64,000 nt of DNA from NCBI GenBank assembly GCA_022495995.1, contig JAFEMH010001359.1:124001-188000 (forward strand), read 5' to 3'. The notes below the pieces were generated by a model, which searched no databases, had not been told where the DNA came from, and worked only from the letters and a program-made list of their open reading frames with translations. The position numbers and the translations under genes were made by a program. Of the stretch, positions 25,812 through 61,452 are shown piece by piece; the stretch's first letter is position 1, and each line of letters opens with the position of its first letter. Source of the stretch: Adenophora triphylla var. japonica. Taxonomy: Eukaryota; Streptophyta; Magnoliopsida; Asterales; Campanulaceae.

Positions 25812-27274
25812 TGTAAGTACCCCAATCTGGATCACCCTCTTCCCAGTACACAGGAAACACCGCAGACTCACAAACGCAGTCTCGAAGACCTATGGCACTC
25901 AAAACCCTCAGCCAAACCAAGGGAGGAACTTTTCTGGGATAAAAAGGGACAAAGGACCACTTGGGAATTTTCAGGAAATCAGAAAAGCATTTAAGGTCCG
26001 TACGGACCTTTTTGTTTCAATGATTACTAAATCCCCGTAAAGTCCACAATATTCCCTCAAATCCCGGAGAACATCATTACCCCCCCTGCATGGTTGGTCC
26101 GTACGGACCTCTTTGCATGCTGAGAAGGTCCGTACGGACCTTATTGCATCTAAAAACCATCATGGCTGAATCTTCTTCATCATCACAGATTCCCTCAAAT
26201 CGAGGAAAACCAAAAACTTAGATTACCTAGAAGGTCCGTACGGACCTTCTTGCAGTTTTCTGGCACTATAAATAGAGGGTTCCCCCTCCCTCATTTTCAC
26301 ACACCTCCCTTTTCTCTCCTCTCCCCCCAGCCTTCAGGCTCCCCTCTAAGACCCTTCGGGGCAATCCCGGCCCCTACCAGATCCTTCTGAGGCCTTCCAA
26401 GCTCCCTCGTGGTGCTCCGAAGCCTCTCCGAGCACTCCCGCGATGCTCCCGCGCTGCCCCGAGGCACTCTCGAGGTACTCTGAGGCCCCTCATGGTACTC
26501 CGAGGCCTTGCCTGGTCTTTCCCAAGGTGTCCCGGCTCTTTCCGAGTCAAATCGGTAGCTTGAACGCACGCCGAAACTCTGCCCGAGTGACTCCTGCCAT
26601 CCCAACGCACGCCGAAACTCTGCCCGAGAAATCCCTGCGATCCCAACGCACGCCGAACCTCTGCCCGAACGCCGCCTACAATCTCAACTCACGCCGAAAC
26701 TCTGTCCGCGAGACAACCGCCCCTCCCGGGCAATCCCGGTCCGTGCCGGAACACTATTCCATCCTCAAACACTATTCCCCAGCGGAAGACAGACACGAAC
26801 CAACATTGGTAAGGCTTCCTTCCATTACTATTTTAATATATTTCAATACGTAGTGTACAATGTAGACATCCGATACAGCATGCATTTTTAAAAAAGCACA
26901 CACACACACACACAACAGTTAAAGAATATTAGGGGTATCCGAAAGACTCGTTTTTACGAGGCGACTCGGGTGAGCTCTAAGATTCTAATATTCTCTTCCC
27001 GAGGAGTCATCTGACCTCCGAACTTAAAATCTCATCACACAAAAACAGTTTATTTCTAAACTGATGCCCTTTTTCAATGTTTTGGGCTTAATAAAAACGG
27101 CGTGGCGACTCTACAATTGCGAAAACAACGGCGAGACACCTCCAACGCGCTAAAACGGAATAAAGCCAGAAGCCGGGGCGCGAACGCGCTGCCTCTAGGA
27201 TCCGGGCGACCTTCCCGAAAGTGATAAATGCGAGATGCCGGAGCCCGCGCGCGAGCCGGATCCGGGTAATTTCA
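25812..27274 (+). mobile_element. OUTER 5' LTR
   Basis: Length is 1,463 bp, TG..CA bounded. It contains U3 with four palindromic boxes, TATAAATAG at 26,267, a region of degenerate GAGGCxCTC / ACGCCGAAACTCTGCCCGAG short repeats (26,400-26,720), an AC run (26,898-26,914) and the conserved U5 block with GGCGTGGCGACTCTAC (27,099-27,114). It is about 50 bp longer than the 3' LTR because of differing numbers of the short repeats. Confidence 0.93.
25995..26275 (+). promoter_or_regulatory. OUTER 5' LTR promoter: four GGTCCGTACGGACC boxes and TATA
   Basis: Perfect 14-bp palindromes occur at 25,995-26,008, 26,096-26,109, 26,127-26,140 and 26,233-26,246. The middle two start 31 bp apart. TATAAATAG follows at 26,267-26,275, 20 bp after the last box. 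Boxes are flanked by CTTTTT/CTCTTTGCA/CTTATTGCA/CTTCTTGCA. Each core contains CCGTAC on both strands, which also matches the consensus core of plant SBP/SPL factors. Confidence 0.85.
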
Positions 27275-27276
27275 GT

Positions 27277-27294
27277 TGGCGACTCTGCTGGGGA
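27277..27294 (+). other. Primer-binding site (tRNA-Arg) of OUTER
   Basis: TGGCGACTCTGCTGGGGA follows the LTR end after 2 bp. It matches the complement of the 3' end of plant tRNA-Arg with one difference (T for C). This is the typical Ogre/Tat primer and sets first-strand synthesis at the 5' LTR. Confidence 0.9.
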
Positions 27295-28584
27295 CGTTTT
27301 GTTTTAAAATCTTTTTAAACAAAACAAAAGATTTTTAAAAAACAATGATGAGGGTCAAACTTTCATTTTACCCCTTTATTTAACTGTTGTGTGTGTGTGC
27401 ACGTGCTTTACTTTTTATTTTACAAAAAAAAAAAAATACAAAAAAATGCATCAATATACATCTGTGCATACATTTAAAATTCTTCAAAAACTTCTGTTTT
27501 ACTCGTAAAAGAATTTTAGAGACCGCACACTACTCGACCGCTTTGCCTCGGTTACACCGCACGCTACGCGCACCGCCTCGGTTACACTGCACACTACAAC
27601 CCTCAACCCGGGGTGGTCTCAGTTGCAGTCCGTTTGGTCTTCCTAGGCCTCTCGGATGCGCATGGGATCATTCCAAACATCCCATCCTAGCCAAGCGTCA
27701 ACCCTGCACGTTTGAGTCTTGAGTCACACTCTGTCCCGGACTCGATTGGTTTTTACCCGGTCAGGTGTCATACGGCTGGATACATATACCATGCCGGCCA
27801 TTTTTCTGAGTCAAGGCTCGGAACTCAAGATCCCTTGCGCAAGCAAAGCGATGAAAGGTCATGCTAAAATCTTGACCTGATCTTGATTTCCGAAGCTACA
27901 CCCAGACGATGTTCCGTCCCGGATATACATCCATGCTCACATGACACCATGTCATCACGCCTTTGATACGTCAGCCATGACGATATGACCCAGCCAACGC
28001 CTAACGTCACAGATCCCTTGCGCAAGCAAGGTAAAGAGAGGTCATGCCGAACTCTTGACCTGTTCTTGACTCAGTGGCCGGCTCGGTTCACTATTCACAT
28101 AGCTAACGCATCAAAACGAACATGACAGGCTCGGTCCTTAGGTTCGATTTTTCTTTTAGGCCGGTGGAAACCTCTTGCCCTATAGGACCCTCGCCCGGGG
28201 CTGTCCACCCTGGGATGTCGAAATACAGGTGCAAAATGAGGGGCTTATAGCCGCACAGATGGTCTCCACTGACCCAGGATCTAGCATAGTTGCGAAAAAG
28301 AAGAGCAATCTTTTCCAACCTACCTAGGACTCTGAGAAAACATGTTTTAAGTAAATTAAAACAACAAAAAAAAATAAAAAATATAAAAGAAGCGGAAACC
28401 GCATGCCACGTGAGCTTTCCCCCTTTTATCCCGAGAGGCCATTCCTGTGTCTAAACCTTGCCCGTCACCCCCTCCAGCGAACCGAGAGTGGTTGAGAATA
28501 CCCGGGAGCCGCCTTTTCAGTATCGAGGTCACAAGGTCCGACAGCCCTTCCAGTTCAATGGTCCGCACCGTCCGCTACTCCCCC
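27295..28584 (+). other. OUTER leader between primer-binding site and gag
   Basis: No convincing gene is present. The leader has repeated wording: CACCGCCTCGGTTACAC-type segments near 27,545-27,600 and two CCCTTGCGCAAGCAA blocks (about 27,832 and 28,015), each followed by GGTCATGC..CTTGACCTG. The same order occurs in INNER (52,640 to 51,800 on the minus strand), and A has similar segments before its array. This is probably the untranslated leader with packaging or translation signals. Confidence 0.6.
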
Positions 28585-34391: not shown

Positions 34392-35484
34392 TCATCCACG
34401 GTGAGTCTTCTTTCGCTCCACGCGAACCAACTCTGCGCCTCTCAGTCCGAGATTAGGGGTCCTCCTCGTAGAGTCAAACAATCCAGCAGCTCTCAGGGCT
34501 TCATTCACCCGTGCTTCGGCTTGGATCTCCTCCCTGCGAGTCTGTAAAAGAGGACCTCTCCCCGTCAGTCGGTCAACTCTAGTCTCGTAGTCAAACAAAG
34601 TGTCTCCCGTCACATCCTGAGGGTCAGACCAGGCTTCGGCACTCCTAAGGCAATAGCTACTACGGCACCCAAGTCCCAAAATCACTCCGCGCCTGCTCCC
34701 CAAAGCCGCTTGGGACTGCCCAACACGCTGCTCATACCAGGCCAAGTACTGAGTCGTCAATACGACACTCTCCCGACGTCTAAGGAGCACCACAGGAGGG
34801 AAAGCGGAATACTTCCATACCCTCAGAAAATACAAGAAAGCACCTGGAGCTGCCATACAAAGAGGAGCTATCTCCGCAGTAGCAAGGTCATCCCAGCCCA
34901 ACAAAGGCTCCTGCTTCATCCCAAACTGCCGGGAAACAAGTGACGGAATATAGAAAGAGGACCAAGATAAACCTGGAACTCTGACAACATAGGACCCTTC
35001 CTGAAAGGCCCTCCTAGTCTCAATCCCCCAGTACGGAACCCACCAATGGATCTGATGCGTACCAAGCCGTGCCATCCATCTCTCCCAGGCGGACTGATCC
35101 ATATCCAACACAAGAGGTCGCTGAGCAAATGACCCCGGGCTAAACGATGTCGGAGCCTCGAGCATGGCCTGAAGTCTCTCTCGCAGCCACAAGGTGAGCA
35201 AAGCAGGGCTTCCCCCTCTCATGAACCGATCCCCAGTCGCCAGACGATCAATACCATGAAGAGTCTCCCCCAGCACCAACGGGACAATATCCTCTCCAGC
35301 TCTGCAGTGCCCAACCACATCTAGCAAAGCGCCATCGCAAACCCCAAGGGAGCTGACCATGAAGAGCGTCGCTATCACGCACAAGGAAAATGCATCCCAA
35401 GAGACATCACTCTCGTCATCAACCATGAACCGCTTCGGCAGCACAGAAATATCAATATGACCCGAATCAAGGATCATGCCCTGC
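34392..35484 (-). pseudogene. OUTER DUF7745-like gene, C-terminal part (split by INNER)
   Basis: An open frame continues the N-terminal part at 54,291-54,670. It encodes MILDSGHIDISVLPKRFMVD, GEDIVPLVLGETLHGIDRLA, IHWWVPYW and SSFYIPSLVSRQFGM, then a charged C-terminus (LLQTRREEIQAEARVNEALR) ending ERKKTHRG. The INNER copy continues about 17 residues further, so the last stop may be premature. The frame is otherwise intact over about 360 codons, implying recent activity before INNER inserted. Function unknown. Confidence 0.82.
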
Positions 35485-36891
35485 TGAAATAGCCCGGATC
35501 CGAGAGGCAGCGCGTTCGCGCCCCGGCATCTGGCATCTTTCGCGTTGGAGCGGTGTCTCGCCGTTTGTTTTCGCATTTGTAGAGTCGCCACGCCGTTTTT
35601 ATTAAGCCCAAAACATTGAAAAAGGGCATCAGTTTAAAGATAATTTTAAAACTGTTTTTGTGTGATGAGATTTTGAGTTCGGAGGTCAGATGACTCCTCG
35701 GGAAGAGAATATTAGAATATTAGAGCTCACCCAAGTCGCCTCGTAAAACGAGTCTTTCGGATACCCCTAATATCCTTTAAATGTTGTGTGTGTGTGTGTG
35801 TGCTTTTAAAAATGCATGCTGTATCGAATGTCTACATTGTATGTTATGTATGGAAATGTATTGAAATAGTAATGGAAGGAAGCCTTACCAATGTTGGTTC
35901 GTGTCTGTCTTCCGCTGGGGAATAGTGTTTGAGGTCGGAGTAGCATTCCGGTACGGATCGGGATTGCCCGGGAGGACCGGTTGTCTCGGACGGAGTTTCG
36001 GCGTGAGTTGATGTTGCGAGGCTGCGTTCGGGCGAGAGGTTCGGCGTGCGTGGAGATCGTCGGGATCACTCGGGCAGAGGTTCGGCGTGCGTTGGGGTGG
36101 CAGGAGTCACTCGGGCAGAGTTTCGGCGTGATTTGGGATCGCCGGTTTGACTCGGAAAGAGCCGGGACACCGTGGAAAGACCAGGCAAGGCCTCGAAGTA
36201 CCACGAGGGGCCTCAGAGTACCTCGAGAGTGCCTCGGGGCAGCGCGGGAGCGTCGCGGGAGCGCTCGGGAGGCTTCGGAGCACCACGAGGGGACTCGGAA
36301 GGCCTCGGAAGGATCCGAAAGGGGCGGGAATGCCTCGGAAGGACTTAGAGGGGAAGCCGGAAGGCCTAGGGAGGAAGAGAGAAGTGGGAGGTGTGTGAAA
36401 ATGAGGAGGGGAGCCCTCTATTTATAGTGCCGAGATTTGGTGCAAAGAGGTTCGTACGGACCTCCACAGTAATCCGAGACTTTTGGTTTTCCTCGATTTG
36501 AGGGAATGCGTGATGATGGAGGAATATTTGCAATTATGATGTTCCACTGTGCAATAAGGTCCGTACGGACCAAGTTGACATGCAAAGAGGTTCGTACGGA
36601 CCAACTCTGCGGGGGTAATCATTTTCCCGGGATTTGAGGGAATATTGTGGACTTTAAGATGATTCGGTAATTATTAAAGCAAAGAGGTCCGTACGGACCA
36701 TTATTGCTTTTCCAATTTCCTGAAAATTCCCAAAAGGTCCTTTTGTCCCTTTTTATCCCAGAAAGGCTCCTCCCTTGGTTTGGGTGGGGGTTTTGAGAGG
36801 GTTTTGAGTGCCAGAGGTCGTCGAGCCTGCGTTGATGAGTCTGCGGTGTTTCCCGTGTGTTTGAAAGGGGTGATCCAGTTGGGGTACTTAC
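35485..36891 (-). mobile_element. INNER 3' LTR
   Basis: It is about 1.41 kb and matches 52,872-54,285 almost word for word. It borders the polypurine-like GAGGGGCTTC (minus strand, 36,892-36,901). The first bases read CGTAAGTACCCC instead of TGTAAGTACCCC, so one terminal base is changed or lost. It has a TATA at 36,418-36,426 and four boxes upstream, two of them with a C-to-T type change (GGTTCGTACGGACC). Confidence 0.92.
36418..36699 (-). promoter_or_regulatory. INNER 3' LTR promoter: TATA plus four boxes
   Basis: CTATTTATA at 36,418-36,426. Boxes: GGTTCGTACGGACC (36,449-36,462), GGTCCGTACGGACC (36,558-36,571), GGTTCGTACGGACC (36,589-36,602) and GGTCCGTACGGACC (36,686-36,699). The middle pair starts 31 bp apart. 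The TATA-proximal box is 22 bp from the TATA. Confidence 0.82.
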
Positions 36892-37630: not shown

Positions 37631-37639
37631 CTGTGAGGA

Positions 37640-39426: not shown

Positions 39427-39511
39427 GGTCCGTACGGACCAACCTGGTTGCAAAGAGGTCCGTGGACCACTTTGGTTTTTTACAGTTCCCAGGTTTTGAC
39501 CGGGTTAAATG
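39427..39511 (+). promoter_or_regulatory. Promoter of INNER PMD-like gene with box pair
   Basis: GGTCCGTACGGACC at 39,427-39,440, and GGTCCGTGGACC at 39,457-39,468 (the box lacking two core bases, still an inverted repeat), start 30 bp apart. Both are preceded by TTGCAAAGA. The TATA-like GTTAAATG at 39,504-39,511 is 35 bp downstream and the ATG is at 39,628. The OUTER gene shows the same spacing (35 bp). Confidence 0.72.
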
Positions 39512-39627
39512 CTGGAGCCTTTCCCCATTTCTTCTTCTTCCGTGCGTGAACCAGAGAGAGAGAAGGAGAGCAAAAAAAACCTCCATTGTTAACCAAAATC
39601 CTCCATTTTTGCTTTGAATTGCTTGCG

Positions 39628-42583
39628 ATGGCGGAAGGATCTCGAAGGAATCGTCGACAACGTAGTCAAGAAGTGGTCGAGCAACGGATGGAGCTCCAAA
39701 GAAATTGGATTTCGTTTGTTCCATCTTCGAAGAACCCGGATGTCTTGTATCCGAATCCGGAGGTGCACAATCGTCGTTCTAGGAACGTCGGGGAGGTAAG
39801 AAATCCGTTCCGTTTTGATTCCCTGCTTGAATTTTTGAATGCTAGAACTAGGTTTTAGTTTTTCGCATTTTTGAATTTTTATTTTTATTTTATGCCTTTT
39901 TGTGAAATTCTTGATGAATTGTTGAAAATGGACATGTAAAAATTGTGAGTATGTGTATTTTGTGCAGAAATGTGTAGATTAGCTTTTATTTGTGAAAATA
40001 AAGTGCCTCTCTAATGAAATGCATGCTTTGGTGTTTTGTACCGTATGCTATTTATGTATGTACATTATGAGAAAAGTTTGTCGTGTAGTGACAATTTTCG
40101 TGAAAAAATGTGACATGTGCCGTGTTTTGTGACGGGTTTTGTCTAAAAGTACGTGCCGTGTAGGGACGGATTTTTTTGAAAAATGTGTTATGCATATGTG
40201 TCGTGCCGTGTGTGCCATGTTTTTGGGTGACAGACTTTGTGGGGAAAATATGTGCAGTATGTGCCGTGTTTTTGTGACGGTTTTTTTTGAAAATGTGTCT
40301 TGTAGTGCTTGATCCCTCTGTTGAGAAAATGTGTACAGTGTGTGCCGTGTTTTTGTGACGGACTGCATGGGAAAAATTACATGTATAATGTATGTGAAAA
40401 TTATGTGCAACATCTGCCGTGTTTTGTGACGGGTTATATGTGAAAAATATGTGCAATGTGTGCCGTGTTTTGTGACGGGTTATTTCCATGGCTTTCCGTG
40501 TTGGGACGGACTTTTGTGCCTTTTGTTTTATATTAAGTACTGTGATTGACGTACCTTTCTTTGTGTTTACTGCGGGATGCGGGGCTTATGGCGGGAAGGC
40601 CAAGAGGATGAAGACTCGGGGATCGCTCGAGAGGCATTGTTGAGTTGTGGCGGCGGATGCCCGATATTTACGTGGATGGTAGGCCGAGTCCCGGGAGAGG
40701 CTGGTCTACGCTTCGGCACAGGTGTGTTTGTAGAGAACACAGGCCGGAGTTTCGATACGAGGAAGAACAAGAGCGTCTTCCTTGGCCTTTCGAGTATTGG
40801 TGGGATACCACCCACACCTTCCATCCGAGTTGGGGAGAGGTGACGGTGACGCCGACCGACTTTCTTTGCGATCACCGGGCTTTCCTTGAAGGAGGGCCGG
40901 TGCGGTGGAGAGATATGATCTCCGATCTTTGTGTTGACCGAGCTGTGGGCTTTGAGCCTCGTCCTCGCGGGGGCACAGGGATGCTTTGTATAGCGACGTG
41001 GAGCCGAGGATCACGGCCGGCATTGGGGCCTATGTCAGGGTACCGGCCGGGTGACGGCGGAGCGGTAGCGCGCTCCTTTTTGTGGTATGCATTGTCCAGA
41101 GACTTTGTTCTCGAACCACGCGGCTACGGCTCCCTTTGCTGTTGGAGAGCTTGATTGATCTGGATAGAGTTTGTGACATCGCTTGGGGCGAGCGAGGCTT
41201 GGCCGAGCTCTACTTCTCTTTGGACCGGTTTAGCGGGGGTGTGGCAGTTCATTGGCTGTTTTGACTTTCGCTTTGGAGGTATGAGTTTATTCTTTGTTTT
41301 GATTTAGCAACTTGTCGCTTCTCCGTTTTCTTTTGCACCGAGCCTTTTCTGTTTTTGTCACAGTGTGGTTCTATGAGGTTTTTCGGTGTTTCCCGTGGGA
41401 TAGAGATCCACAGAGGCCGCATTCTTGCGTACCGCTATCTTTGAAATTTGGGCTCGTACGGCGAGGAAGAGGAGGACCAGCGGGGAAGCTCACCATCGCC
41501 TACGGGGATGTGCGGGAGCGTCACGGAGAGGGGTAGCCCGGAGGGGTTTGTTTTGTTCCCGTGGGCTCGGTATGAGGGTGATGAGTTCGAGGGCTCCCGA
41601 GGTGACGGCGCGACGGAAGATCTTTGCGGGGCGACCTGCGATGTTATGTATACGGGGAGCGGGTCTTACGCGGCATGGCCCCGGTGTGCTTCCCGTGGCT
41701 CCGAGGGACCCTCCTTTTGGGATGCTTGATTCCCGGGACATGGATGTGCTTGACTTTGAGAGGTACCTTGGCGGTGTGGGCGCCGAGGAGTTCATTTTGT
41801 ATGGAGAGGAGTACGGGGCCTTCGTGAGGAGGAAGCTGAGGACGCCGCAGTGCGCGAGGAGAGAGAGGCTGGCCCGCAAGCTCCCCCAGAGGTTCCGATG
41901 CCGGGGCCGGATTTCACGTATGTCCGTGGGGACGGGTCGAGGCGGAGGGTGTCTGTACCCGTTTCTGAGCAGGCTTCCGCTGCATACCGAGTGGACCCCG
42001 ATAGATCGGTGAGTGTGCTTACTCTTTTCCATCTTGTCATCTTTTCTGTATTTTTCTCTTTTTGTTGTTGAGTATAACTTTTTTGCTGAGCTTTTCCTTG
42101 GCTGCTTGCTTGTGCAGGTCCCGGGGAGAGCCTATGATATGCTGACTCACCGTTATGTGGCGATGAGGTCGTTTGCGAAGAAGATGGCGTCGAAGATGTC
42201 TTGCCGGTCTTCGCGACGCGTGCCGGCGTACCCGGCTATGCCTTCGAGGCATTACGCAGACGTTCCTCCACCGAGAGCCGAGCCGGAGCCACGGCGGGAG
42301 GGACCTTCGAGGGCGGCATAGCATGGATGCGGGACGTCTTCGGGAGCTCGAGGCGGCAACCCTTTTATCGATTCTTCCCTCCTCGGGATGCACGGGGTGA
42401 GGATCCTCGAGCCTTCTTTCTTCGATCCTTTCGTCGGATTTGATCCTTCGGATTATTTTGAGTGGCGGCCTCGGCGAGGCTCGGTACTCGATGACGAGGA
42501 CGTGGCGGGCGAGTTCACGGGGATGCCCGACTTCTCTCTTGATGATCTTGGCGAGGATGATGATGATCGAAGAGTCGGATTAG
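39628..42583 (+). pseudogene. PMD-like gene, four exons (INNER, antisense to element)
   Basis: Exons: 39,628-39,795; about 40,570-41,278; 41,364-42,008; 42,120-42,583. Donors are GTAAG, GTATG and GTGAG; acceptors of exons 3 and 4 are CACAG and TGCAG. Exon 1 encodes a basic, Arg/Gln-rich start (MAEGSRRNRRQRSQEVVEQR). Exon 2 carries the PMD block in shifted frames (WWDTTHTFHPSWGEVTVTPT). Exon 4 encodes YDMLTHRYVAMRSFAKKMAS and an acidic end finishing EESD. Several frameshifts in exons 2-4 make this copy non-functional. The intron positions match OUTER and Z. Confidence 0.78.
40080..40530. repeat. CCGT..ACGG repeats in PMD intron 1 (INNER)
   Basis: About nine copies of GTGCCGTGTTTTGTGACGG or GCCGTGTAGGGACGGA type sit within intron 1. 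Each has CCGT and ACGG separated by 6-9 bases, which are the two halves of the promoter box core CCGTACGG. The same repeats occur in intron 1 of OUTER and in element Y. Confidence 0.75.
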
Positions 42584-42909
42584 GGTCCATTTGCTTTCCC
42601 TCTTTCCATATCTTCTTTTTTTTGTTTAGCAACGGACATTTGATGTACCTATAATAAAACACTCGTATTTGCATGGCAAACGGCATTTTATTTTAGGATG
42701 TAATGTCATTTTTGTGATTCCAGGAATTGTCCTAGAAATTGTTGCTATTATTTTTTATTTTGTGCATGCCACGTGGTGAGTGCGTTTGTGGGTAGTGTAT
42801 GTTTCTTGGGAATGGCTTTGGCCGGTGTTTGGGCGATTTGGAGCAAGGTCCTGCGAGGACGGTGGTTGTTGTACCATTTCTTTGGGGAAATGGGTCATGG
42901 TTGCAAGGA
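42584..42909 (+). other. Spacer between INNER PMD-like and DUF7745-like genes
   Basis: Non-coding. It starts with a likely 3' untranslated region (CTATAATAAAACACTC near 42,650, a possible polyadenylation signal AATAAA) and runs into the promoter of the next gene. The OUTER equivalent is 54,832-55,165. Confidence 0.6.
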
Positions 42910-42981
42910 GGTCCGTACGGACATACTTAGCATGCAAAGAGGTCCGTACGGACCAACCTTGCTTTGGGAAGGAGATAAATG
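42910..42981 (+). promoter_or_regulatory. Promoter of INNER DUF7745-like gene with box pair
   Basis: GGTCCGTACGGACA (42,910-42,923) and GGTCCGTACGGACC (42,941-42,954) start 31 bp apart. The second is preceded by TGCAAAGA. The TATA-like GATAAATG (ATAAATG from 42,975) begins 20 bp after the second box. ATG at 43,073. Confidence 0.75.
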
Positions 42982-43072: not shown

Positions 43073-44593
43073 ATGGATTCTTCGTAAGTCCCTAGAATTT
43101 TGCCGAGGCTTTCGCAGGAGAGGCAAGCACACTTCCTTGAGCAGCTGAAAATGTGGATGCGGCGCCGTATGAGGCATCAGAGACGGGCTTTCGAGGTAAG
43201 GTTTCGTCTTTGCTCGATTTGGTCTTTTAAGGAGTTGGTTCCTGATTGGGATTTGTTGCGGGCTGCCGCGAAGTTCTGGGATGTTAGGAGGCATGTGTAT
43301 TGTTTCTCCTATAATGAAATGGTGCCCACTTTTGAGGATTTTCGGGATTTGATTGGAGGACCGGAGGTGGAGGCCATCTCGCTTCCTTTGATGGGTGGTT
43401 CTGCGGTGAGCGTGAAGCTTGCAGGCTTTCTTCGTACTTCGTTGGAAGAAGTGCAGGGCATGATCCTTGATTCGGGTCATATCGACATTTCTGAGCTGCC
43501 GGAGCGGTTCATGGTTGATGATGAGTGATGTCTCTTGGGACGCATTTGCCTTGTGCGTGATGGCGGCGCTTTTCTGGTCGGCTCCCTTGGCATTTGCGAT
43601 GGTGCTTTGCTAGATGTGGTTGGGCAGCTGCGAGCGGAGATGATATTGTCCCGTTGGTCTTTGGGGAGACTCTTCATGGTATCGGCCGTACAGCGACTAG
43701 GGATCGGTTCATGAGAGGGGGAAGCCCCGCTTTGCTCACCTTGTGGGCTGCGAGAGAGACTTCGGGCCATGCCCGAGGCTCCGGCGTCGTTTAGCCCGTG
43801 GTCATTTGCTCGGCTGACCTCTTGTGTTGGATATGGATCGATCCGCACAGGAGAGATGGATGGCACGGCTTGGTACGCATCGAGATCCGCTGGTGGGTTC
43901 CTTGCGTGGAGGATTGAGACTAGGAGGATCTTGCGGGGAAGGGTCCTACGTTGTCGAGTTCCGAGGTTTGTCTTGGTCCTCCTTCTATATTCCGTCGCTT
44001 GTTTCCGGCGGTTTGGGATGAAGCGAGGAGCCTTTGTTGGGGTGGGATGACCTTGCTACTGCGGAGGTAGTTCCTCTTTGTATGGCGGCTTCGGGTGCCT
44101 TCTTGTATTTTACGAGGGTATGGAAGTATTCCGCTTTCCCTCTGTGGTACTCCTTAGGCGTCGGGGAGCGTCGTATTGACGACTCGGTACGGCACAGTAT
44201 GAGCGGCGTGTTGGGCGATCCCAAGTGGCTTTGGAAAGCGGGCGTGTAGCGATTGCAGGACCCGGTTGCCGTAGTAGCTATTGCCTTAGGAGTGCGAAGC
44301 ACAGTCGACCCTTTGGATGTGACGGGAGACACTTTGTTTGACTACGAGACTAGAGTTGACCGGCCCGACGGGGAGAGGTCCTCTTTTACGGACTCGCGGG
44401 GAGGAGATCCGAGCCGAAGCACGGGCGAATGAAGCCACGAGAGCTGCTTGGATTGTTTGACTCTACGGGGAGGACCCACGATCTCGGAGCGAGAGACGCA
44501 GAGTTGGTTCACGTGGAGCGAAAGAAGACTCGCCGGGGACGAGGGAAGAAAGGAAAGAATGGCGAGGGGACAAGCGCAGATGGCGCGGAATGA
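43073..44593 (+). pseudogene. DUF7745-like gene (INNER, antisense to element)
   Basis: Single exon. The start MDSS is followed by a TAA-type break, then by an open frame 43,100-43,528 with FLEQLKMWMRRRMRHQRRAF (basic), DWDLLRAAAKFWDVRRHVYC, FSYNEMVPTFEDFRDLIGG and MILDSGHIDISELPERFMVD. After that several frameshifts occur, although all blocks seen in OUTER (GETLHGI, SAGGF/HWWVP region, FYIPSLVS) can be traced up to the terminal ERKKTRRGRGKKGKNGEG and TGA at 44,593. It is a dead copy. DUF7745-type proteins have no established biochemical role. Confidence 0.8.
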
Positions 44594-52851: not shown

Positions 52852-52869
52852 TCCCCAGCAGATTCGCCA
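52852..52869 (-). other. Primer-binding site (tRNA-Arg) of INNER
   Basis: The minus strand reads TGGCGAATCTGCTGGGGA, starting 2 bp from the LTR end. It matches the tRNA-Arg site of OUTER with one change (C to A at position 7). Confidence 0.88.
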
Positions 52870-52871
52870 AC

Positions 52872-54285
52872 TGAAATAGCCCGGATCCGAGAGGCAGCGC
52901 GTTCGCGCCCCGGCATCTGGCATCTTTCGCGTTGGAGCGGTGTCTCGCCGTTTGTTTTCGCATTTGTAGAGTCGCCACGCCGTTTTTATTAAGCCCAAAA
53001 CATTGAAAAAGGGCATCAGTTTAAAGATAATTTTAAAACTGTTTTTGTGTGATGAGATTTTGAGTTCGGAGGTCAGATGACTCCTCGGGAAGAGAATATT
53101 AGAATATTAGAGCTCACCCGAGTCGCCTCGTAAAACGAGTCTTTCGGATACCCCTAATATCCTTTAAATGTTGTGTGTGTGTGTGTGTGCTTTTAAAAAT
53201 GCATGTTGTATCGGATGTCTACATTGTATGCTATGTATGGAAATGTATTGAAATAGTAATGGAAGGAAGCCTTACCAATGTTGGTTCGTGTCTGTCTTCC
53301 GCTGGGGAATAGTGTTTGAGGTCGGAGTAGCGTTCCGGTACGGATCGGGATTGCTTCGGGAAGGACCGGTTGTCGGCGGACAGAGTTTCGGCGTGAGTTG
53401 ATGTTGCAGGCTGCGTTCGGGCAGATGTTCGGCGTGCGTGGGGATCGTCGGGATCACTCGGGCAGAGGTTCGGCGTGCGTTGGGGTGGCAGGAGTCACTC
53501 GGGCAGAGTTTCGGCGTGATTTGGGATCGCCGGTTTGACTCGGAAAGAGCCGGGACACCGTGGAAAGACGAGGCAAGGCCTCGGAGTACCACGAGGGGCC
53601 TCAGAGTACCTCGAGAGTGCCTCGGGGCAGCGCGGGAGCGTCGCGGGAGCGCTCGGGGAGGCTTCGGAGCACCACGAGGGGGATCGGAAGGCCTCGGAAG
53701 GATCCGAAAGGGGCCGAGAATGCCTCGGAAGGACTTAGAGGGGAAGCCAGAAGGCCTAGGGAGGAAGAGAGAAGTGGGAGGTGTGTGAAAATGAGGAGGG
53801 GTAGCCCTCTATTTATAGTGCCAGATTTGGTGCAAAGAGGTCCGTACGGACCTCCCTGGTAATCCAGACTTTTGGTTTTCCTCGATTTGAGGGAATATGT
53901 GATGATGGAGGAATATTTGCAATTATGATGTTCCCTGTGCAATAAGGTCCGTACGGACCAAGTTGACATGCAAAGAGGTCCGTACGGACCAACTCTGCAG
54001 GGGGGTAATCATTTTCCCCGGGATTTGAGGGAATATTGTGGACTTTAAGAGGATTCAGTAATTATTAATGCAAAGAGGTCCGTACGGACCATTATTGCTT
54101 TTCCAATTTCCTGAAAATTCCCAAAAGGTCCTTTTGTCCCTTTTTATCCCAGAAAGGCTCCTCCCTTGGTTTGGCTGGGGGTTTTGAGAGGGTTTTGAGT
54201 GCCAGAGGTCGTCGAGACTGCGTTGATGAGTCTGCGGTGTTTCCCGTGTGTTTGGAAGGGGGTGATCCAGATTGGGGTACTTACA
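52872..54285 (-). mobile_element. INNER 5' LTR
   Basis: It is 1,414 bp, from GGGGTACTTACA (plus strand end, 54,285) to TGAAATAGCCCGG (52,872). It is the same length as the OUTER 3' LTR. It contains the TATA at 53,809-53,817, four intact boxes, the short GAGGCCTCGG-type repeats, an AC/GT run (53,172-53,190) and the U5 block GTAGAGTCGCCACGCC. Confidence 0.94.
53809..54090 (-). promoter_or_regulatory. INNER 5' LTR promoter: TATA plus four boxes
   Basis: CTATTTATA at 53,809-53,817. Perfect GGTCCGTACGGACC at 53,839-53,852, 53,946-53,959, 53,977-53,990 and 54,077-54,090. The middle pair starts 31 bp apart and the proximal box is 21 bp from the TATA. Each is flanked by TGCAAAGA or GCAATAA on the left. 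Confidence 0.86.
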
Positions 54286-54290
54286 CCTGC

Positions 54291-54670
54291 ACTTCTCCCA
54301 ACGAAGTACGAAGAAAACCTGCAAGCTTCACGCTCACAGCAGCGCTACCAATCAAGGGAAGCGAGATGGCCTCCACCTCCGGTCCTCCAATCAAAGCCCA
54401 AAAATCCTCAAAGGTAGGCACTACCTCGTTGTAGGAGAAGCAATACACATGCCTCCTAACATCCCAGAACTTCGCGGCAGCCCGCAACAAATCCCAATCA
54501 GGAACCAACTCCTTAAAAGACCAAACCGAGCAAAGTCGAAACCTTACCTCGAAAGCCCGCCTCTGATGCCTCATACGGCGTCGCATCCACGTTTTCAGCT
54601 GCTCAAGGAAGTGTGCTTGCCGCTCCTACGAAATCCTTGGCAAAATTCTTGGAACGTACGAAGAATCCAT
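54291..54670 (-). pseudogene. OUTER DUF7745-like gene, N-terminal part (split by INNER)
   Basis: ATG at 54,670; residues MDSSYVPRILPRIS, then one TAG (CAG in INNER), then FLEQLKTWMRRRMRHQRRAF, DWDLLRAAAKFWDVRRHVYC, FSYNEVVPTFEDFWALIGG and LAGFLRTSLGEVQ at the insertion border. The reading continues in the C-terminal part at 35,484 on the far side of INNER. The basic N-terminus followed by the DUF7745-like block is shared by all copies. Start supported by the same ATG position in INNER. Confidence 0.82.
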
Positions 54671-54756: not shown

Positions 54757-54831
54757 AGCATTTATTTCCTTCCCAAAAGCAAGGCTGGTCCGTACGGACC
54801 TCTTTGCAACCAAGGTCTGTCCGTACGGACC
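54757..54831 (-). promoter_or_regulatory. Promoter of OUTER DUF7745-like gene with box pair
   Basis: GGTCCGTACGGACC (54,787-54,800) and TGTCCGTACGGACC (54,818-54,831) start 31 bp apart. The TATA-like ATAAATG (minus strand, 54,759-54,765) is 21 bp from the nearer box, the same distance as in the LTRs. The ATG lies at 54,670. Confidence 0.75.
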
Positions 54832-55165: not shown

Positions 55166-58046
55166 CTAATCCGACTCCTCAGCATCATCATCACTGACAT
55201 CCTCAAGCGAGAAGTCGGGCATCCCGGTAAACTCGCCAGTCACACCCTCATCATCGGAGTACTGAGCCCCCTCCTGAGGCTGGTACTCAAGATACTCAGA
55301 AGGATCGAAGCCGAAAAAAGGGTCAAAATAGGCATGCCCTGACGAACCCTCACCCTGTGCATCCGGCGGAGGAAAGAACTGATGAAGGGTCTGCGGTCTC
55401 TGAGCTCCCGAGGACGTCCCGGCATCCATGCTATGCCGCCCCCGCGAAGGTCCCTCCTGCTGTGGCTCCGGCTTGGCTCTCGGTGGAGGAACATCTACAG
55501 AATGCCTCGAAGGCATCGGCTCGTACGCCGGCACACGTCGCGAAGACCGGCAAGACAGCCTCGACGCCATCTTCTTCGCGAAGGACCTCATCGCCACATA
55601 ACGGCGGGTCAACATGTCATAGGCTCTCACCGGGACCTGCACAAGCAAACAGCCAAAGAAACGCTCAGCAATACAGTCATACTCAACAACAAAAATAGAA
55701 AAATACAGAAAAGATGCCAAGATGGAAAAGAGTAAGCACACTCACCGGCATGTCAGGATCCACTTGGTAGGCAGCAGGAGCCTGCTCAGGGACGGGTACA
55801 GACACCCTCCTCCTCGATGAATCCCCACGAACATACGTGAAATCCGGCCCGGGCACCTAACCTGCGGGGACCCCCGCGGACCAGCCTCCCTCTCCCTCGC
55901 CAACACCTGTGGCGTCCTCAACTTCCTCCTCACGAAGGCTCCATACTCCTCTCGATACAAGGCAAACTCATGGGCACTCACGCCGCCCAAATACCTCTCA
56001 AACTCCAATACATCCATATCCCAGGAATCCAACATCCCGAAAGGCGGGTCCCTCGGAGCCAAGGGAAGCATACCCGGGCCATGCTGCCAAAATACCCGCT
56101 CTCCTGTGTACATGACGTCGCAGGTCGTGCCCCGCAAAGATCTTCCGCCGCGCCGTCACCACAGGAGCCCCTCGAACTCATCGCCTCGTACCGAACCCAG
56201 GGATACAGAACAAATGCCTCCGGGCTATCTCTCTCCAAATGTGCCTCGCACCTCCCCGTAGGAAATGGTGAGCTTACCCCCGCCGGGTCCTCCTCTTCTC
56301 GCCGGGCGTGCCCACCTAACATAGCGGGATAGGCCGCTACGGCCCTGTGATCTCTATCCCACGGGAAGCACCGAAAGATCTCGTAGAACCACACCTGCGA
56401 CAAAAGCAGAAAAGGCTCAATGCAAGAGAAAACAGAGAAAATGACAGGTTGCTAATCAAAAACAGCAATGAACTCATACCTCCAAAGCAAAATCAAAACA
56501 GGCCAAAGAACCTGCCACACCCCCGCCGAACCGGTCCAAGGAGAAGTAAAGCTCGGCTAGGCCCGCCTCGCCCCAAGCTATGTCACAAACTCCCTCCAAG
56601 TCAATCAAGCTCTCCAAGAGAGCAAAAGAAGCCATCGCCGCATGGTTCGAGAACAAAGTCTCGGAAAGGGCAAACCACGTAAAGGAGCGCGCCAAGCCCG
56701 CCGTCACCCGGCCGGTACCCCGACGCAGGCCCCAATACCGGCCGTAATCCTCGTCTCGCATCGCCGTACAAAGATCCCTGTGTCCCTACGAGGAAGAGGC
56801 GCAAAGCCCAAAGCAGCTCGCCGCCCGTCCTCGGCAATCTTATCCCTCCACCGCACCGGCCTTCCTTTCAAGGAAAGCCCGTGATAGCAAAGAAAATCAG
56901 GGCGTCACCGTCACCTCGCCCCACCTCAGATGGAAGGTGTGGGTGGTATCCCACCAATACTCAGAAAGGCCCAGGAAGACGCTCTTGTTCTTCCTCGTGT
57001 CAGAAACCCCGGCCAAGTTCTCCACGAACACGCCCAGGCCGGAAGCATAGACCAGCCTCCTAGGGCTCGGCCCGCCATCCATAGAGAAATTCGGCATCTG
57101 CTGCCACAACTCGACCACAACCTCGAGCGATCCTCGAGCCTTCATCTTCTTGGCTTTCCCACCAAAAGCCCTCATCCCGCAGTAAACACAAAGAAAGGTA
57201 CGTCGCCACAAGCATTTAATACCAAAGCATAAAAAAAAAAGTCTGTCACCAAACACGACACACATTGCACATAATTTTCACATGTAACCCGTCACAAAAC
57301 ACGACATGCGTTACACATAATTTTTCCCATGCAGTCCGTCACAAAACACGGCACACACTGTACAAATTTTCTCAAAAAGATCAAGCACTACCCGACACAT
57401 TTTCAAAAGACCCGTCACAAACGGCACCCATTGCACATGTTCTCCCCACAAAGTCCGTCACCAAAAACACGGCACACACTGCATAACACATTTTCAAAAG
57501 AAAAGTTCGTCCCTACACGGCACATACTTTCAGACAAGACCCGTCACAAAACACGGCACATGTCACATTTTTTTACAAAATTTGTCACTACATGACAATT
57601 TTTCTCACAATGTACATACATAAATAGCATAAGGTACAAAACACCAAAGCATGCATTTCCATAGAGAGGCACTTTATTTTCACAAATAAGAGCTAATCTA
57701 CACATTTCTGCACAAAATTCACATACCCACAATTTTTACATGCTCAATTTCAACAATTCATCAAGAATTTCACAAAAAGCATGGCAAATAATAAAAGCCC
57801 CAAATATGCGAAAAAATAAAACCTAGTTCTAGCATTCAAAAATTCAAACAAGGAGTCAAAACGAAATTGATTTCTTACCTCCCCGACGTTCCTTACTCGC
57901 CGGTTATGCACCTCCAGATTCGGATACAACACATCCGGGTTCTTCGAAGAAGGCACAAAGGAGATCCAATTTCTTTGAAGCTCCATCCTTTGTTCGATCA
58001 CATCTCGACCCCGTTGGCGACGTCCCCTCCTTGATCCTTCCGCCAT
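55166..58046 (-). pseudogene. PMD-like gene, four exons (OUTER, antisense to element)
   Basis: Exons: 58,046-57,879; about 57,183-56,480; 56,394-55,746; 55,636-55,166. Donors GTAAG, GTATG, GTGAG; acceptors GCAG for exons 3 and 4. The acceptor of exon 2 is unclear (ACTGCGGGATGAG). Exon 1: MAEGSRRGRRQRGRDVIEQR. Exon 2: WWDTTHTFHLRWGEVTVTP. Exon 4 is fully open: YDMLTRRYVAMRSFAKKMAS to MPDFSLEDVSDDDAEESD, an acidic tail shared with Z. Frameshifts affect exons 2 and 3. It lies upstream of, and parallel to, the DUF7745-like gene. Confidence 0.8.
57265..57600. repeat. CCGT..ACGG repeats in PMD intron 1 (OUTER)
   Basis: Copies such as CCCGTCACAAAACACGGCAC and GTCCCTACACGGCAC recur roughly every 40-60 bp. 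Inverted, they equal the INNER intron wording. Each has CCGT and ACGG separated by 6-9 bases. Confidence 0.75.
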
Positions 58047-58162: not shown

Positions 58163-58251
58163 GTTTTAAACCCAGTCAAAATCTGGGAACTGTAAAATTC
58201 ATACTTGGTCCGTACGGACCTCTTTACATCCCAGGTTGGTCCGTACGGACC
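58163..58251 (-). promoter_or_regulatory. Promoter of OUTER PMD-like gene with box pair
   Basis: GGTCCGTACGGACC at 58,207-58,220 and 58,238-58,251, starting 31 bp apart. The TATA-like GTTTAAAAC (minus strand, 58,163-58,171) lies 35 bp from the nearer box. The ATG is at 58,046. Confidence 0.78.
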
Positions 58252-58349: not shown

Positions 58350-58960
58350 TAACCCAAAGAATTCAACCACCGGCCGTCGTTGTAAGCTCCTGACTTCGCC
58401 CACTCAACGGCAATTCAACCACCGGCCGTCGTGTAAGCCCGACTTCGCCCACTCAACGGTAATTCAACCACCGGCCGTCAGTGTAAGCCCGGACTTCGCC
58501 CACACAACGGCAATTCAACCACCGGCCGTCAGTGTAAGCCCGGACTTCGCCCACTCAACGGCAATTCAACCACCGGCCGTCAGTGTAAGCCCGGACCTCG
58601 CCCACTCCAGCGGAAACTCAAGCACTGGCCATCAAAGTAAGCCCGAGCTCCTTCCCCAACAAGTCAAAAGGGAAGTCGTACAAGACTACATATCCCCAGC
58701 ACCGGCCGTCATCATAAGCCCGGACTTCGCCTACTAAACGGTAAAACAAGCGCAAAAGGAGCCAGCACCTCCCAGCACTTATCCCAAGGCACGAAATGCC
58801 TCCAAAACGCCAAACGGTGAAGCAACGACCGGCCATCATCCTTGCCCGCTCAACGGCAACTCAAACATCGGCCATCAAAGTAAGCCCGAAGTCACAAGGC
58901 CACGATGATCCCCAACAGACGAACACCGGCGGTCATCGTAAGTCCAACCTTCTCCCCAGC
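58350..58960. repeat. ~52-bp tandem array (OUTER)
   Basis: Five to six copies of CAATTCAACCACCGGCCGTC plus AGTGTAAGCCCGGACTTCGC to about 58,640, followed by more diverged versions and one copy of the unit that forms INNER's 116-bp array (58,740-58,860). Collinear in reverse with INNER 38,240-39,325. Confidence 0.88.
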
Positions 58961-59028
58961 AGATAAAGCACGAGGCATCTACACCTCTCGCAATCAAAGC
59001 TCAAGGCAGCCATGCCTCCACAACCACA

Positions 59029-59560
59029 GCCAGAAGACGATTCAAGTCCTCACGCATGGCAAACCGCAGCCAGAAGACGATTCAAGTCCTCACGCATGGC
59101 GAACCGCAGCCAGAAGACGATTCAAATCCTCACGCATGGCAAACCGCAGCCAAAAGACGATTCAAGTCCTCACGCATGGCAAACCGCAGCCAGAAGACGA
59201 TTCAAGTTCTCACGCATGGCAAACCGCAGCCAGAAGACGATTCATGTCCTCACGCATGGAAAACCGCAGCCAGAAGACGATTCAAGTCCTCACGCATGGC
59301 AAACCGCAGCCAGAAGACGATTCAAGTCCTCACGCATGGCAAACCGCAGCCAGAAGACGATTCAAGTCCTCACGCATGGTAAACCGCAAATTTAAGACGA
59401 TTCAAGTCCTCACGCATGGCAAACCACGCCGAAGACGATTCAAGTCCTCATACATGACACACCCGCAGCCAGAAGACGATTCAAGTCCTCACGCATGGCA
59501 AACCGCAGTCAGAAGACGATTCAAGTCCTCACACATTACTATCTCCAGCCTGGAAGGCTT
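59029..59560. repeat. 40-bp tandem array (OUTER)
   Basis: About thirteen copies of a 40-bp unit, TTCAAGTCCTCACGCATGGC plus AAACCGCAGCCAGAAGACGA. Homologous in reverse to INNER's 43-bp array but with different period and consensus. The 240-aa, 127-aa and similar frames are periodic translations of it. Confidence 0.93.
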
Positions 59561-59639
59561 TAAACCACTCGGTCCGGAAGACCGTATAAACCTCCCAAAT
59601 CACTATCTCCGGCCCGGAAGGCCTTAAACCACCCAATTT

Positions 59640-60023
59640 GGAAGATCGTAAAATTTCCATCTCAGGACGCCGTCACGTCCTCACAGTCGACCTCGGCGGT
59701 CACAAACCATCTTCTAGTAAGATTACACACCCTGGACACCACCACGTCCTTACCACTGACCTCGGCGGTCACACGATACTTCAGGGCACCACCACGCCCG
59801 CATACACTCACAATTTCACGACATCTGAACTACGATCAGGCTTGATTCCCGCCAGGGATACGTAGGAATCCTATCACAGGGTCCAGCCAATTGACCTAAA
59901 TGGTTACACAGCAGGACACCGCCACGTCCTCCCACCGACCTACACGGTCACTTCCTCTCTCAGCACGCGATCCAGATTAGGACCCTTATCTTATCGACGA
60001 CCCCACTTCCTCCGTAAGTGACG
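59640..60023. repeat. GACC(N5)GGTC repeats next to OUTER 3' LTR
   Basis: GACCTCGGCGGTC at 59,689-59,701 and 59,758-59,770, and GACCTACACGGTC at 59,937-59,949, alternate with AGGACACC..CACGTCCT wording. It is the counterpart of INNER 36,892-37,520 and of Z 12,820-13,350. Confidence 0.78.
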
Positions 60024-60038
60024 TCGTCGAGGGGCTTC
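60024..60038 (+). other. Polypurine tract of OUTER
   Basis: CGTCGAGGGGCTTC ends directly at the TG of the 3' LTR. The core GAGGGGCTTC is found at the same junction in INNER, Z and (with changes) Y, as expected for the plus-strand primer. Confidence 0.75.
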
Positions 60039-61452
60039 TGTAAGTACCCCAATCTGGATCACCCTCTTCCCAGTACACAGAAACACCGCACTCACAAACG
60101 CAGCCTCGAAGACCTATGGCACAACCCTCAAAAACCCTCACCAAACCAAGGGAGGAACTTTTCAGGATAAAAGGGACAAAAGGACCTCTTGGGAATTTTC
60201 AGGAAATCAGAAAAGCATTTAAGGTCCGTACGGACCTTTTTGTTTCAATGATTACTAAATCCCCTTAAAGTCCACAATATTCCCTCAAATCCCGGAGAAC
60301 ATCATTACCCCCCTGTATGGTTGGTCCGTACGGACCTCTTTGCATGCTGAGAAGGTCCGTACGGACCTTATTGCATCTAAAAGCCATCATGGCTGAATCT
60401 TCTTCATCATCACAGATTCCCTCAAATCGAGGAAAACCAAAAACTTAGATTACCTAGAAGGTCCGTACGGACCTTCTTGCAGTTTTCTGGCACTATAAAT
60501 AGAGGGTTCCCCCTCCCTCATTTTCACACACCTCCCTCTTCTCTCCTCTCCCCCCAGCCTTCAGGCTCCCCTCTAAGACCCTTCGGGGCAATCCCGGCCC
60601 CTTCCGGATCCTTCCGAGGCCTTCTGAGCTCCCTCGTGGTGCTCCGAAGCCTCTCCGAGCGCTCCCGCGCTGCCCCGAGGCACTCTCGAGGTACTCTGAG
60701 GCCCCTCGTGGTACTTCGAGGCCTTGCCTGGTCTTTCCCAAGGTGTCCCGGCTCTTTCCGAGTCAAACCGGTAGCTTGAACGCACGTCGAAATTCTGCCC
60801 GAGTGACTTCTGCCATCCCAACGCACGCCGAAACTCTGCCCGAGTAATCCCTGCGATCCCAACGCACGCCGAAACTCTGTCCGCAAACAACCGGCCCCTC
60901 CCGAAGCAATCCCGGTCCGTGTCGGAACACTATTCCATCCTCAAACACTATTCCCCAGCGGAAGACAGACACGAACCAACATTGGTAAGGCTTCCTTCCA
61001 TTACTATTTCAATATATTTCAATACGTAGTGTACAATGTAGACATCCGATACATCATGCATTTTTAAAAAAGCACACACACACACACACACAACATTTAA
61101 AGAATATTAGGGGTATCCGAAAGAATCGTTTTTACGAGGCAACTCGGGTGAGCTCTAAGATTCTAATATTCTCTTCCCGAGGAGTCATCTGACCTCCGAA
61201 CTCAAAATCTCATCACACAAAAACAATTTATTTCTAAACTGATGCCCTTTTTCAATGTTTTGGGCTTAATAAAAACGGCGTGGCGACACTACAATTGCGA
61301 AAACAACGGCGAGACACCTCCAACACGCTAAAACGGAATAAAGCCAGATGCCGGGGCGCGAACGCGCTGCCTCTCGGATCCGAGCGACCTTCCCGAAAGC
61401 GACAAATGCGAGATGCCAGGGCCCGGGCGCGAGCTGGATCCGGGTAATTTCA
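60039..61452 (+). mobile_element. OUTER 3' LTR
   Basis: It is 1,414 bp, TGTAAGTACCCC to GGGTAATTTCA, followed by the target duplication GATGG (61,453-61,457). It is nearly identical in wording to the 5' LTR and lacks some of its short R-region repeats. Confidence 0.94.
60223..60502 (+). promoter_or_regulatory. OUTER 3' LTR promoter: four boxes and TATA
   Basis: Perfect GGTCCGTACGGACC at 60,223-60,236, 60,323-60,336, 60,354-60,367 and 60,460-60,473. The middle pair starts 31 bp apart. TATAAATAG at 60,494-60,502 is 20 bp after the last box. Confidence 0.85.

Follow-up and report, generated by a model that had tools for sequence, protein, structure and literature searches.

The stretch of DNA considered here, referred to as the window, comprises 64,000 nucleotides from Adenophora triphylla var. 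japonica (GCA_022495995.1, contig JAFEMH010001359.1, positions 124,001 to 188,000 of the forward strand). It apparently contains, within 1 to 64000, a stack of nested long terminal repeat (LTR) retrotransposons of one broad kind, in which element E hosts element C, C hosts an element named OUTER and OUTER hosts an element named INNER (Table 1). INNER and OUTER, here called family A, carry a 14-bp palindromic box, GGTCCGTACGGACC, both in the U3 region of their LTRs and as closely spaced pairs upstream of two internal antisense genes, and the family of element E carries an altered box in the same arrangement. This box and its probable role are the subject of the present account.

Nested elements and their antisense genes

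The LTRs of INNER and OUTER are ~1.4 kb long, those of OUTER matching each other in two pieces (identity 94.7% and 93.2%). Read on its own strand, the pol gene of INNER has the reverse transcriptase at 48.7-48.1 kb, the RNase H-like domain RVT_3 at 47.3-46.8 kb and the integrase at 46.3-45.4 kb, which is the Ty3 order and thus sets the element apart from the Ty1/copia Sireviruses. The Pfam scores of RVT_3 and of gag (PF03732) are above their cutoffs, and those of the reverse transcriptase and integrase are below. Both elements appear to be large Ty3/gypsy retrotransposons, which may be termed Tat-like from their organisation, RVT_3 having been matched once only. The region between pol and the 3' LTR is long and includes antisense open reading frames (ORFs) and tandem repeats, as in elements of the Retand lineage.

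Two antisense genes, one for a PMD protein and one for a DUF7745-like protein, lie between pol and the 3' LTR in INNER and OUTER alike. The PMD copies are 83-84% identical to each other, and the PF10536 match of the OUTER copy (34.6 bits) is just under the cutoff of 34.9. A public relative of the DUF7745 protein (P0001), which is 48% identical to that of family E over 80% of the query, scores above the cutoff for both PMD and DUF7745, and therefore the DUF7745 gene also belongs to the PMD superfamily. Between INNER and OUTER the ratio of nonsynonymous to synonymous substitution rates (dN/dS) is 0.16-0.51 in all six antisense ORFs that yielded a value (0.20-0.51 for PMD, 0.16 and 0.50 for the parts of DUF7745) and 0.24 for the integrase; the values are rough because two of the PMD ORFs cover overlapping sequence in different frames. 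The gag and protease queries yielded no value. INNER, which interrupts the DUF7745 gene of OUTER, lies in the opposite orientation to OUTER, at ~500 bp from OUTER's own box pair.

Table 1. Elements, antisense genes and boxes in the window (positions counted from its first letter; E values from Pfam matches)
Feature	Position	Strand	Remarks
OUTER element	25,812-61,452	+	hosts INNER
OUTER 5' LTR	25812..27274	+	TGTAAGTACCCC start; primer-binding-site-like 18-mer at 27,277
OUTER 3' LTR	60039..61452	+	matched to OUTER 5' LTR
INNER element	35,484-54,285	-	inside OUTER's antisense DUF7745 gene
INNER LTR, 3' in INNER's own orientation	35484..36891	-	96.8% identity to 52,871-54,284
INNER LTR, 5' in INNER's own orientation	52871..54285	-	primer-binding-site-like 18-mer, - strand, 52,852
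Four boxes, OUTER 5' LTR	25995..26246		starts 25,995; 26,096; 26,127; 26,233; before TATAAATA
Four boxes, OUTER 3' LTR	60223..60473		starts 60,223; 60,323; 60,354; 60,460
Four boxes, INNER LTR	36449..36699		starts 36,449; 36,558; 36,589; 36,686
Four boxes, INNER LTR	53839..54090		starts 53,839; 53,946; 53,977; 54,077
OUTER antisense PMD promoter pair	58207..58251	-	31 bp; ATG near 58,046
INNER antisense PMD promoter pair	39427..39468	+	30 bp; second box without two core bases
OUTER antisense DUF7745 promoter pair	54787..54831	-	31 bp; ~117 bp before ATG 54,670
INNER antisense DUF7745 promoter pair	42910..42954	+	31 bp; upstream of gene
OUTER antisense PMD	55169..58046	-	broken, presumed intron; PF10536 E=1.6e-08 on 56,900-57,277
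INNER antisense PMD	39600..42651 (approximate)	+	broken; PF10536 E=0.0044 on 40,612-41,151, below cutoff
OUTER antisense DUF7745, 5' part	54286..54670	-	PF24924 E=0.0014, below cutoff; rest at 34,395-35,483 (E=0.0079, below cutoff), split by INNER
INNER antisense DUF7745	43073..44539	+	frameshifted; PF24924 E=0.00014 on 43,088-43,525, below cutoff
Element E (family E)	12.4-18.97 kb		hosts C
Family E LTR pair	12475..12516	+	AGCCGTGCGGCT and AGCCGTGCGGTC, spacing 30 bp; 23 bp to TATTTATA; cores 12,477/12,507
Family E PMD-promoter pair	13833..13872	+	29 bp; cores 13,834/13,863; degenerate, better kept in L029-L031
Family E DUF7745-promoter pair	17403..17443	+	CCGTCCGG and CCGTGCGG, 29 bp; cores 17,405/17,434
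Family E antisense PMD	15181..17050	+	PF10536 E=5e-20 on 15,372-15,902, above cutoff; presumed exon 1 near 14,018
Family E antisense DUF7745	17646..18971	+	PF24924 E=0.0081, below cutoff
Element C	LTR from 18,970		hosts OUTER
Family C LTR boxes	19317..19422		AGTCCGGCCGGACT and GGTCCGGCCGGACT, spacing 92 bp; 104 bp from the nearer box to TATAAATA at 19,527
Older LTR D	~6.4-7.36 kb		absent from the first-pass annotation
LTR D boxes	7007..7161		7,007 (2 mismatches), 7,116 (3), 7,148 (exact); last two 32 bp apart

A paired box at three kinds of promoter

The first-pass annotation of the window had listed 24 boxes in INNER and OUTER, and each of them was recovered where it had been placed: 19 are exact, four carry one change (36,449; 36,589; 42,910; 54,818) and one, at 39,457 in the INNER PMD promoter, is the 12-mer GGTCCGTGGACC, with two core bases gone as had been described. 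With up to three mismatches allowed, the window contains 28 matches, against a mean of 1.55 and a maximum of 5 in 100 shuffles; on this count, and on the shuffles reported below for the pairs of family E, a chance origin was rejected. No further match with up to two mismatches occurs in INNER or OUTER beyond the LTR U3 regions and the sequence upstream of the antisense genes, and the single extra match with three mismatches in the two elements lies at 28,560, in the gag region of OUTER.

Conservation extends beyond the 14 bp to a unit of ~22 bp, with an asymmetric flank around the symmetric core (consensus TGCAAAGA). Among 23 boxes of the window, the decayed one being excluded, the bases T, G, C, A and A at -8 to -4 are matched in 20-23, C at -6 in 22, and A at -5, -4 and -1 in all 23; the family A flanks come partly from a set in which the best flank match decided the orientation, so that agreement in the flank is overstated there. 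The boxes share one direction within each element, and each contains two CpG sites. The core CCGTNCGG is scarce in the window, on either strand, beyond the boxes of families A and E, being found at 687, 48,119 and 49,715 and also at 7,151 in LTR D.

Measured from start to start, the pairs of INNER and OUTER are spaced by 31 bp at every promoter except the decayed INNER PMD pair (30 bp). The claim of the first-pass annotation that the spacing is 31 bp at every promoter thus holds for these two elements, but not beyond them, where 30 bp is common and family E has 29-31 bp. For example, 18 loci on contig 1 that had been picked for at least one exact box, several of them overlapping loci fetched earlier, were all paired, at 31 bp in 11 and at 30 bp in 7, several of the partners being degenerate. 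Likewise, among 63 distinct exact positions listed on contig 1, the 13 spacings shorter than 60 bp were of 30 bp (8) or 31 bp (5), and 30-bp pairs with both boxes exact are common elsewhere in the genome. A strict 31-bp rule was dropped, as 29-32 bp was seen. The spacers themselves differ between promoters and between families, with their length nearly constant. Neither a freely varying spacing nor an equal frequency of paired boxes at these promoters and in the rest of the elements, either of which would speak against a promoter element of this kind, was seen in the loci read.

The LTR box nearest to the TATA-like sequence lies 20 bp from it in the OUTER 5' LTR, and 22 and 21 bp in the INNER LTRs with boxes at 36449..36699 and 53839..54090, respectively; the corresponding distances of the LTR pair are 126, 131 and 128 bp. 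At the antisense promoters a run of at least six A/T starts ~20 bp (DUF7745) or ~36 bp (PMD) past the second box, the latter figure excepting a nearer T-rich run that the PMD promoters also carry.

Conservation of the boxes against their surroundings

Comparison of INNER with OUTER indicates that the boxes have changed less than their flanks. Between the OUTER 5' LTR and the INNER LTR at 52,871-54,285, 56 of 56 box bases are identical, all box CpG sites included, against 87.6% outside the boxes (Fisher one-sided 7e-4; U3 alone 7.6e-5), and 54 of 56 are kept between the OUTER 5' LTR and the other INNER LTR (p=0.016). Similarly, the boxes of the PMD promoter agree at 26 of 26 bases plus 2 gap columns against 75% outside (p=0.001), and those of the DUF7745 promoter at 28 of 28 against 86% (p=0.017). 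The older LTR D, whose U3 is 60-63% identical to those of INNER and OUTER outside the boxes, keeps 37 of 42 box bases relative to INNER (p=6e-4, 14 gap columns) and 28 of 36 relative to OUTER (p=0.03, 34 gap columns).

This conservation bears on the idea that the pairs are functionless relics of a ~31-bp tandem duplication followed by copying between the LTR and the interior of the element. The paired boxes are indeed direct repeats in the same direction within an element, and tandem repeats are plentiful in these elements. However, the boxes have resisted change between INNER and OUTER unlike their flanks, and the spacers differ between promoters and families while their length nearly holds. 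A further locus, L032, also fits a relic poorly: its long matches to the window elements are at best 77-83% identical, and it has a 31-bp pair elsewhere in U3, in a stretch that aligns weakly (~65-67%) to the window LTRs. A relic of duplication is accordingly regarded as very unlikely.

Occurrence in the genome

The 14-mer occurs in at least 47,555 copies in the 2.48 Gb genome, with 0 copies of the reversed control; this and the other exact-motif counts in the genome are lower bounds. Two family A boxes at the contig 1 loci, CGTCCGTGCGGACC and AGTCCGTGCGGACC, are without GTAC. A search for relatives in viral contigs gave 68 stretches that fitted a pattern, of which none was confirmed. At 560-894 of the window, on the - strand, an LTR-like end has TATTTATAG and a lone CCGAACGG ~27 bp upstream. 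This LTR end near 687 was considered as a further case of the box and is not claimed as one, the CCGAACGG before its TATA having neither flank nor partner.

A second family with an altered site

The antisense genes of family E have a DNA identity of 58-66% to those of INNER and OUTER, and its DUF7745 protein is 53% identical to that of OUTER over 312 amino acids. The 14-mer GGTCCGTACGGACC was not found in the family E element of the window. Its place is taken by a near-palindrome, AGCCGT(G/C/A)CGGCT, in the register of family A and with a similar 5' flank, which stands in pairs of 29-31 bp at the LTR, the PMD and the DUF7745 promoters. CCGT(G/C)CGG cores form two exact pairs in this element, and none of 2000 dinucleotide shuffles of the stretch gave any. 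The two families hence share architecture, register and orientation, whereas the outer bases of the box are family-specific and agree at all three promoters. The flank GC(A/T)AA(T/A)GA precedes the family E core (58 boxes), and the GC of this flank is as far from the core as that of family A. The centre of the core is A, rarely G, in family A and G, C or A in family E, where A is found in only 9% of the 58 boxes, most of which are CCGTGCGG or CCGTCCGG.

The pairing extends through the genome. AGCCGTGCGGCT has at least 10,166 copies (control 39), and 9 of 10 loci chosen by it have a partner, each at 31 bp. In the copies L029, L030 and L031 the LTR pairs are spaced by 31, 31 and 31 bp and the DUF7745-promoter pairs by 31, 30 and 31 bp, and at their PMD promoter CCGCCCGG/CCGTACGG are 29 bp apart as counted by eye. 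The loci for box counts were picked by an exact box; only a set of 15 DUF7745 promoters was picked by protein, and 14 of these are paired (10 at 30 bp, 4 at 29 bp), the remaining one having a single box. In this set a box was an exact CCGTNCGG core, or a core with one change and at least three of four flank bases. The 15 promoters belong to 15 of 119 scored matches (61,405 candidates), all from the stop-free ones listed. By hand count ~65 of these 119 best-scoring matches listed are stop-free, many with frames of ~503 amino acids, which suggests that family E has been recently active.

A third family, that of element C, has LTR boxes in another arrangement. GGTCCGGCCGGAC has at least 296 copies in the genome (control 2), and among 12 family C loci two boxes lie 84-95 bp apart in 8, the second box having up to two changes, and a single box is present in 4. 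In two C copies read for ~9 kb up to the 3' LTR, no match to PMD, DUF7745, reverse transcriptase or integrase was obtained (tblastn, E<=1e-3), nor any internal box with up to two mismatches. Family C thus looks non-autonomous in the part read, apparently lacking both the antisense PMD genes and the internal pairs. This joint absence favours the view that internal boxes go with antisense genes. The 31-bp rule was rejected for family C, on its spacing and on the lack of internal boxes in the part read. Five loci (L034, L035, L038, L039 and L043) represent another sequence type, in which the C palindrome has different surroundings (TGAAGAAGG-GTCCGGCCGGAC).

Other features of the window

Tandem arrays of several kinds, with units of 40 to 232 bp, lie at 37300-39319 in INNER and at 58360-59650 in OUTER, in the interval that separates the antisense genes from the 3' LTR, and some are weakly D-like. 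A GTGCCGTGTTTTGTGACGGG-type repeat is found at 40137-40585 in INNER and 57245-57567 in OUTER, each time within what is presumed to be the PMD intron, and at 8177-8581 in D.

A probable shared operator for sense and antisense transcription

The box is probably a family-specific paired operator that ties sense and antisense transcription together. Its placement in U3 and upstream of the antisense starts suggests a promoter operator. Each box would be bound by a sequence-specific factor, probably as a dimer, since the core has dyad symmetry. A spacing of 29-32 bp is about three helical turns, so that the two sites of a pair would be exposed on roughly one face of the helix, and two dimers could sit side by side on that face in U3 and at both antisense promoters. 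One factor would then set the transcription of the genomic sense strand and of the antisense genes jointly. Binding, cooperativity and the direction of regulation are here read from the DNA, with activation or anti-silencing favoured. As regards the single regulon proposed in the first-pass annotation, the shared site does join the LTR to both antisense promoters, and co-expression stands as a candidate property.

Several observations weigh against such an operator. The box beside the TATA-like sequence of the family A LTR is single, with the pair 126-131 bp off in the three LTRs measured, and two of the four boxes in each family A LTR are unpaired. The core CCGTNCGG also stands outside pairs at 687, 48,119 and 49,715. 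The centre of the E core is variable, the PMD-promoter pair of the window copy is degenerate, and the family C boxes, 84-95 bp apart, argue that the 31-bp pair is not a universal need. Comparisons between the two LTRs of one element show no significant conservation of the boxes (p=0.88 and 0.077), as is expected from neutral decay after insertion. Promoters were assigned from TATA-like sequences and ORFs and not from mapped starts, and the families with both antisense genes examined are two only. For the antisense products, the dN/dS values are rough as noted above, Pfam scans recognised no DNA-binding domain, and the predicted structure of the DUF7745-like protein is of low confidence (mean predicted local distance difference test score, pLDDT, 33).

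The site varies between the families and agrees within each, which makes a regulator travelling with the element attractive. The antisense PMD-superfamily proteins are candidates because they are the expected products of the pair-bearing promoters themselves. It is therefore tentatively proposed, as something quite possible though short of probable, that the regulator is one of the element's own PMD-superfamily antisense products, alone or with a host partner, feeding back on its own promoter and on the LTR. A more specific form of the proposal, a retrovirus-like circuit in which the antisense PMD protein is a sequence-specific dimeric DNA-binding regulator of the paired operator, both at its own promoters and in the LTR, with protein specificity and operator changing jointly from family to family, is rather unlikely to hold in full. 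If true, PMD would rank as a new class of DNA-binding domain, and the effect of the host proteins MAIN and MAIL1 on the DOWN motif might be accounted for.

Alternatively, the boxes may be sites of a host transcription factor recruited by the elements, as is supposed for box repeats of other plant LTRs, with the antisense proteins uninvolved. The lack of a recognised DNA-binding domain in those proteins fits such a factor, as does family C, which has LTR boxes yet no PMD or DUF7745 match in the part read. Moreover, the authors of the Sirevirus study likened the palindromes of those elements to the sites of host stress factors (PMC2829016). However, a single fixed factor would predict the same site in both families, whereas the A and E sites differ and the outer bases of each agree at its three promoters. 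Host recruitment is somewhat doubtful on this balance, though a real possibility. The SBP/SPL factors, which the first-pass annotation had put forward as host candidates, require GTAC. They are disfavoured because GTAC, although lacking from very few boxes of family A (CGTCCGTGCGGACC and AGTCCGTGCGGACC are examples), is found in few of family E, whose cores are mostly CCGTGCGG and CCGTCCGG.

The paired boxes might instead serve a VANC-like anti-silencing factor that keeps the promoters unmethylated, rather than a classical activator. VANC proteins bind short repeated non-coding motifs, which change between families in step with the protein (PMC5735166); each family A box has its two CpG sites, which are identical in the OUTER 5' LTR and the INNER LTR at 52,871-54,285. 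On the other side, VANC motifs stand in tandem repeats and not in pairs at a fixed distance, and neither DUF1985 nor DUF287 was among the Pfam matches of the scanned, broken antisense ORFs, to which only PMD and DUF7745 fit. A factor of this type is considered unlikely.

A perfect 14-nt palindrome can also form a hairpin or base-pair with a second molecule, and the boxes could act in RNA, as hairpins by which genomic or antisense transcripts are packaged, dimerised or processed. Against this, TATA-like elements follow the boxes, and transcripts starting there would presumably not include them, although U3 would still be present at the 3' end of the genomic RNA. In addition, the E boxes with a central G or C are not perfect palindromes and have nevertheless kept their spacing. 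A role in RNA is highly improbable.

With a shared operator, the preferred reading, what the antisense genes do and how PMD proteins act at the molecular level can be put to a direct test. Its tens of thousands of sites in the 2.48 Gb genome would form a large reservoir of binding sites, some of which may lie close to host genes.

Comparison with known systems

Among the extra domains recorded in a survey of LTR elements from plants, PMD is the commonest (PMC9289625), and no paper on DUF7745 was found in the open-licence literature. Retand and Grande elements are known to have antisense ORFs downstream of pol and before the 3' LTR, accompanied by tandem repeats; gene23 of Grande has its own promoter, and a regulatory role has been proposed for such ORFs (PMC11963269, PMC7264820). 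The Retand-type ORFs are mostly TRP28, whereas the present ones are PMD and DUF7745, and the available text of the two papers describes no cis element common to the LTR and the antisense promoter (PMC11963269, PMC7264820). TRP28 (PF04195) was not among the matches of the present antisense ORFs (E<=0.1, or <=1), which is a weak test as the ORFs are broken.

When MAIN or MAIL1 is lost in Arabidopsis, genes with a common promoter motif are expressed less and transposons are de-repressed, and direct recognition of this DOWN motif has been proposed and is as yet unshown (PMC7156037, PMC9899485). These are host proteins, and a DOWN instance, CATGCAGTTT, differs from the palindrome. Only ATGCA is common to it and the box flank ATGCAAAGA, a resemblance that was set aside as too short to use. 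The antisense and accessory circuits of retroviruses, such as the human T-lymphotropic virus (HTLV), are alike in that an accessory product is proposed to act on the LTR. No homology to them is claimed, and the action on the LTR is in the present case a proposal only.

VANDAL elements are Mutator-like DNA transposons. The targets of their VANC proteins are element-specific short non-coding motifs that differ even between related elements and for which co-evolution of motif and protein has been proposed (PMC5735166), and the A and E boxes are likewise family-specific motifs of non-coding regions. The VANC21 motif, YAGTATTAY, lies in tandem repeats and its binder, VANC, is known (PMC5735166), whereas here the binder is only a candidate.

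The repeated motifs (RM boxes) of Sireviruses are short palindromes, many per element and element-specific in sequence, which form clusters before the LTR TATA box and recur before ENV, an internal accessory gene (PMC2829016). Similarly, the family A LTRs have four boxes upstream of TATA, the nearest at 20-22 bp, and an extra pair stands upstream of each internal antisense accessory gene. The differences are that Sireviruses are Ty1/copia elements with a sense ENV, whereas the present ones are Ty3/gypsy with antisense PMD genes; that the RM core is CGG-CCG and the present box is CCG-NN-CGG, with the half-sites reversed in order; and that no fixed pair spacing is described for the RM boxes in the available text (PMC2829016). 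The first-pass annotation had known of no description of such a site. Sirevirus palindromes, although of another superfamily, are similar in kind (PMC2829016), and that statement has to be moderated. Among the titles and abstracts that searches of the open-licence literature brought up, none described this palindrome as such a site or a site shared by LTR and antisense promoters, and the papers listed for the palindrome itself or shorter forms of it were one on Streptomyces and one on Aspergillus. The nearest precedents are the Sirevirus motifs for the layout and the VANC motifs for the joint change of motif and protein.

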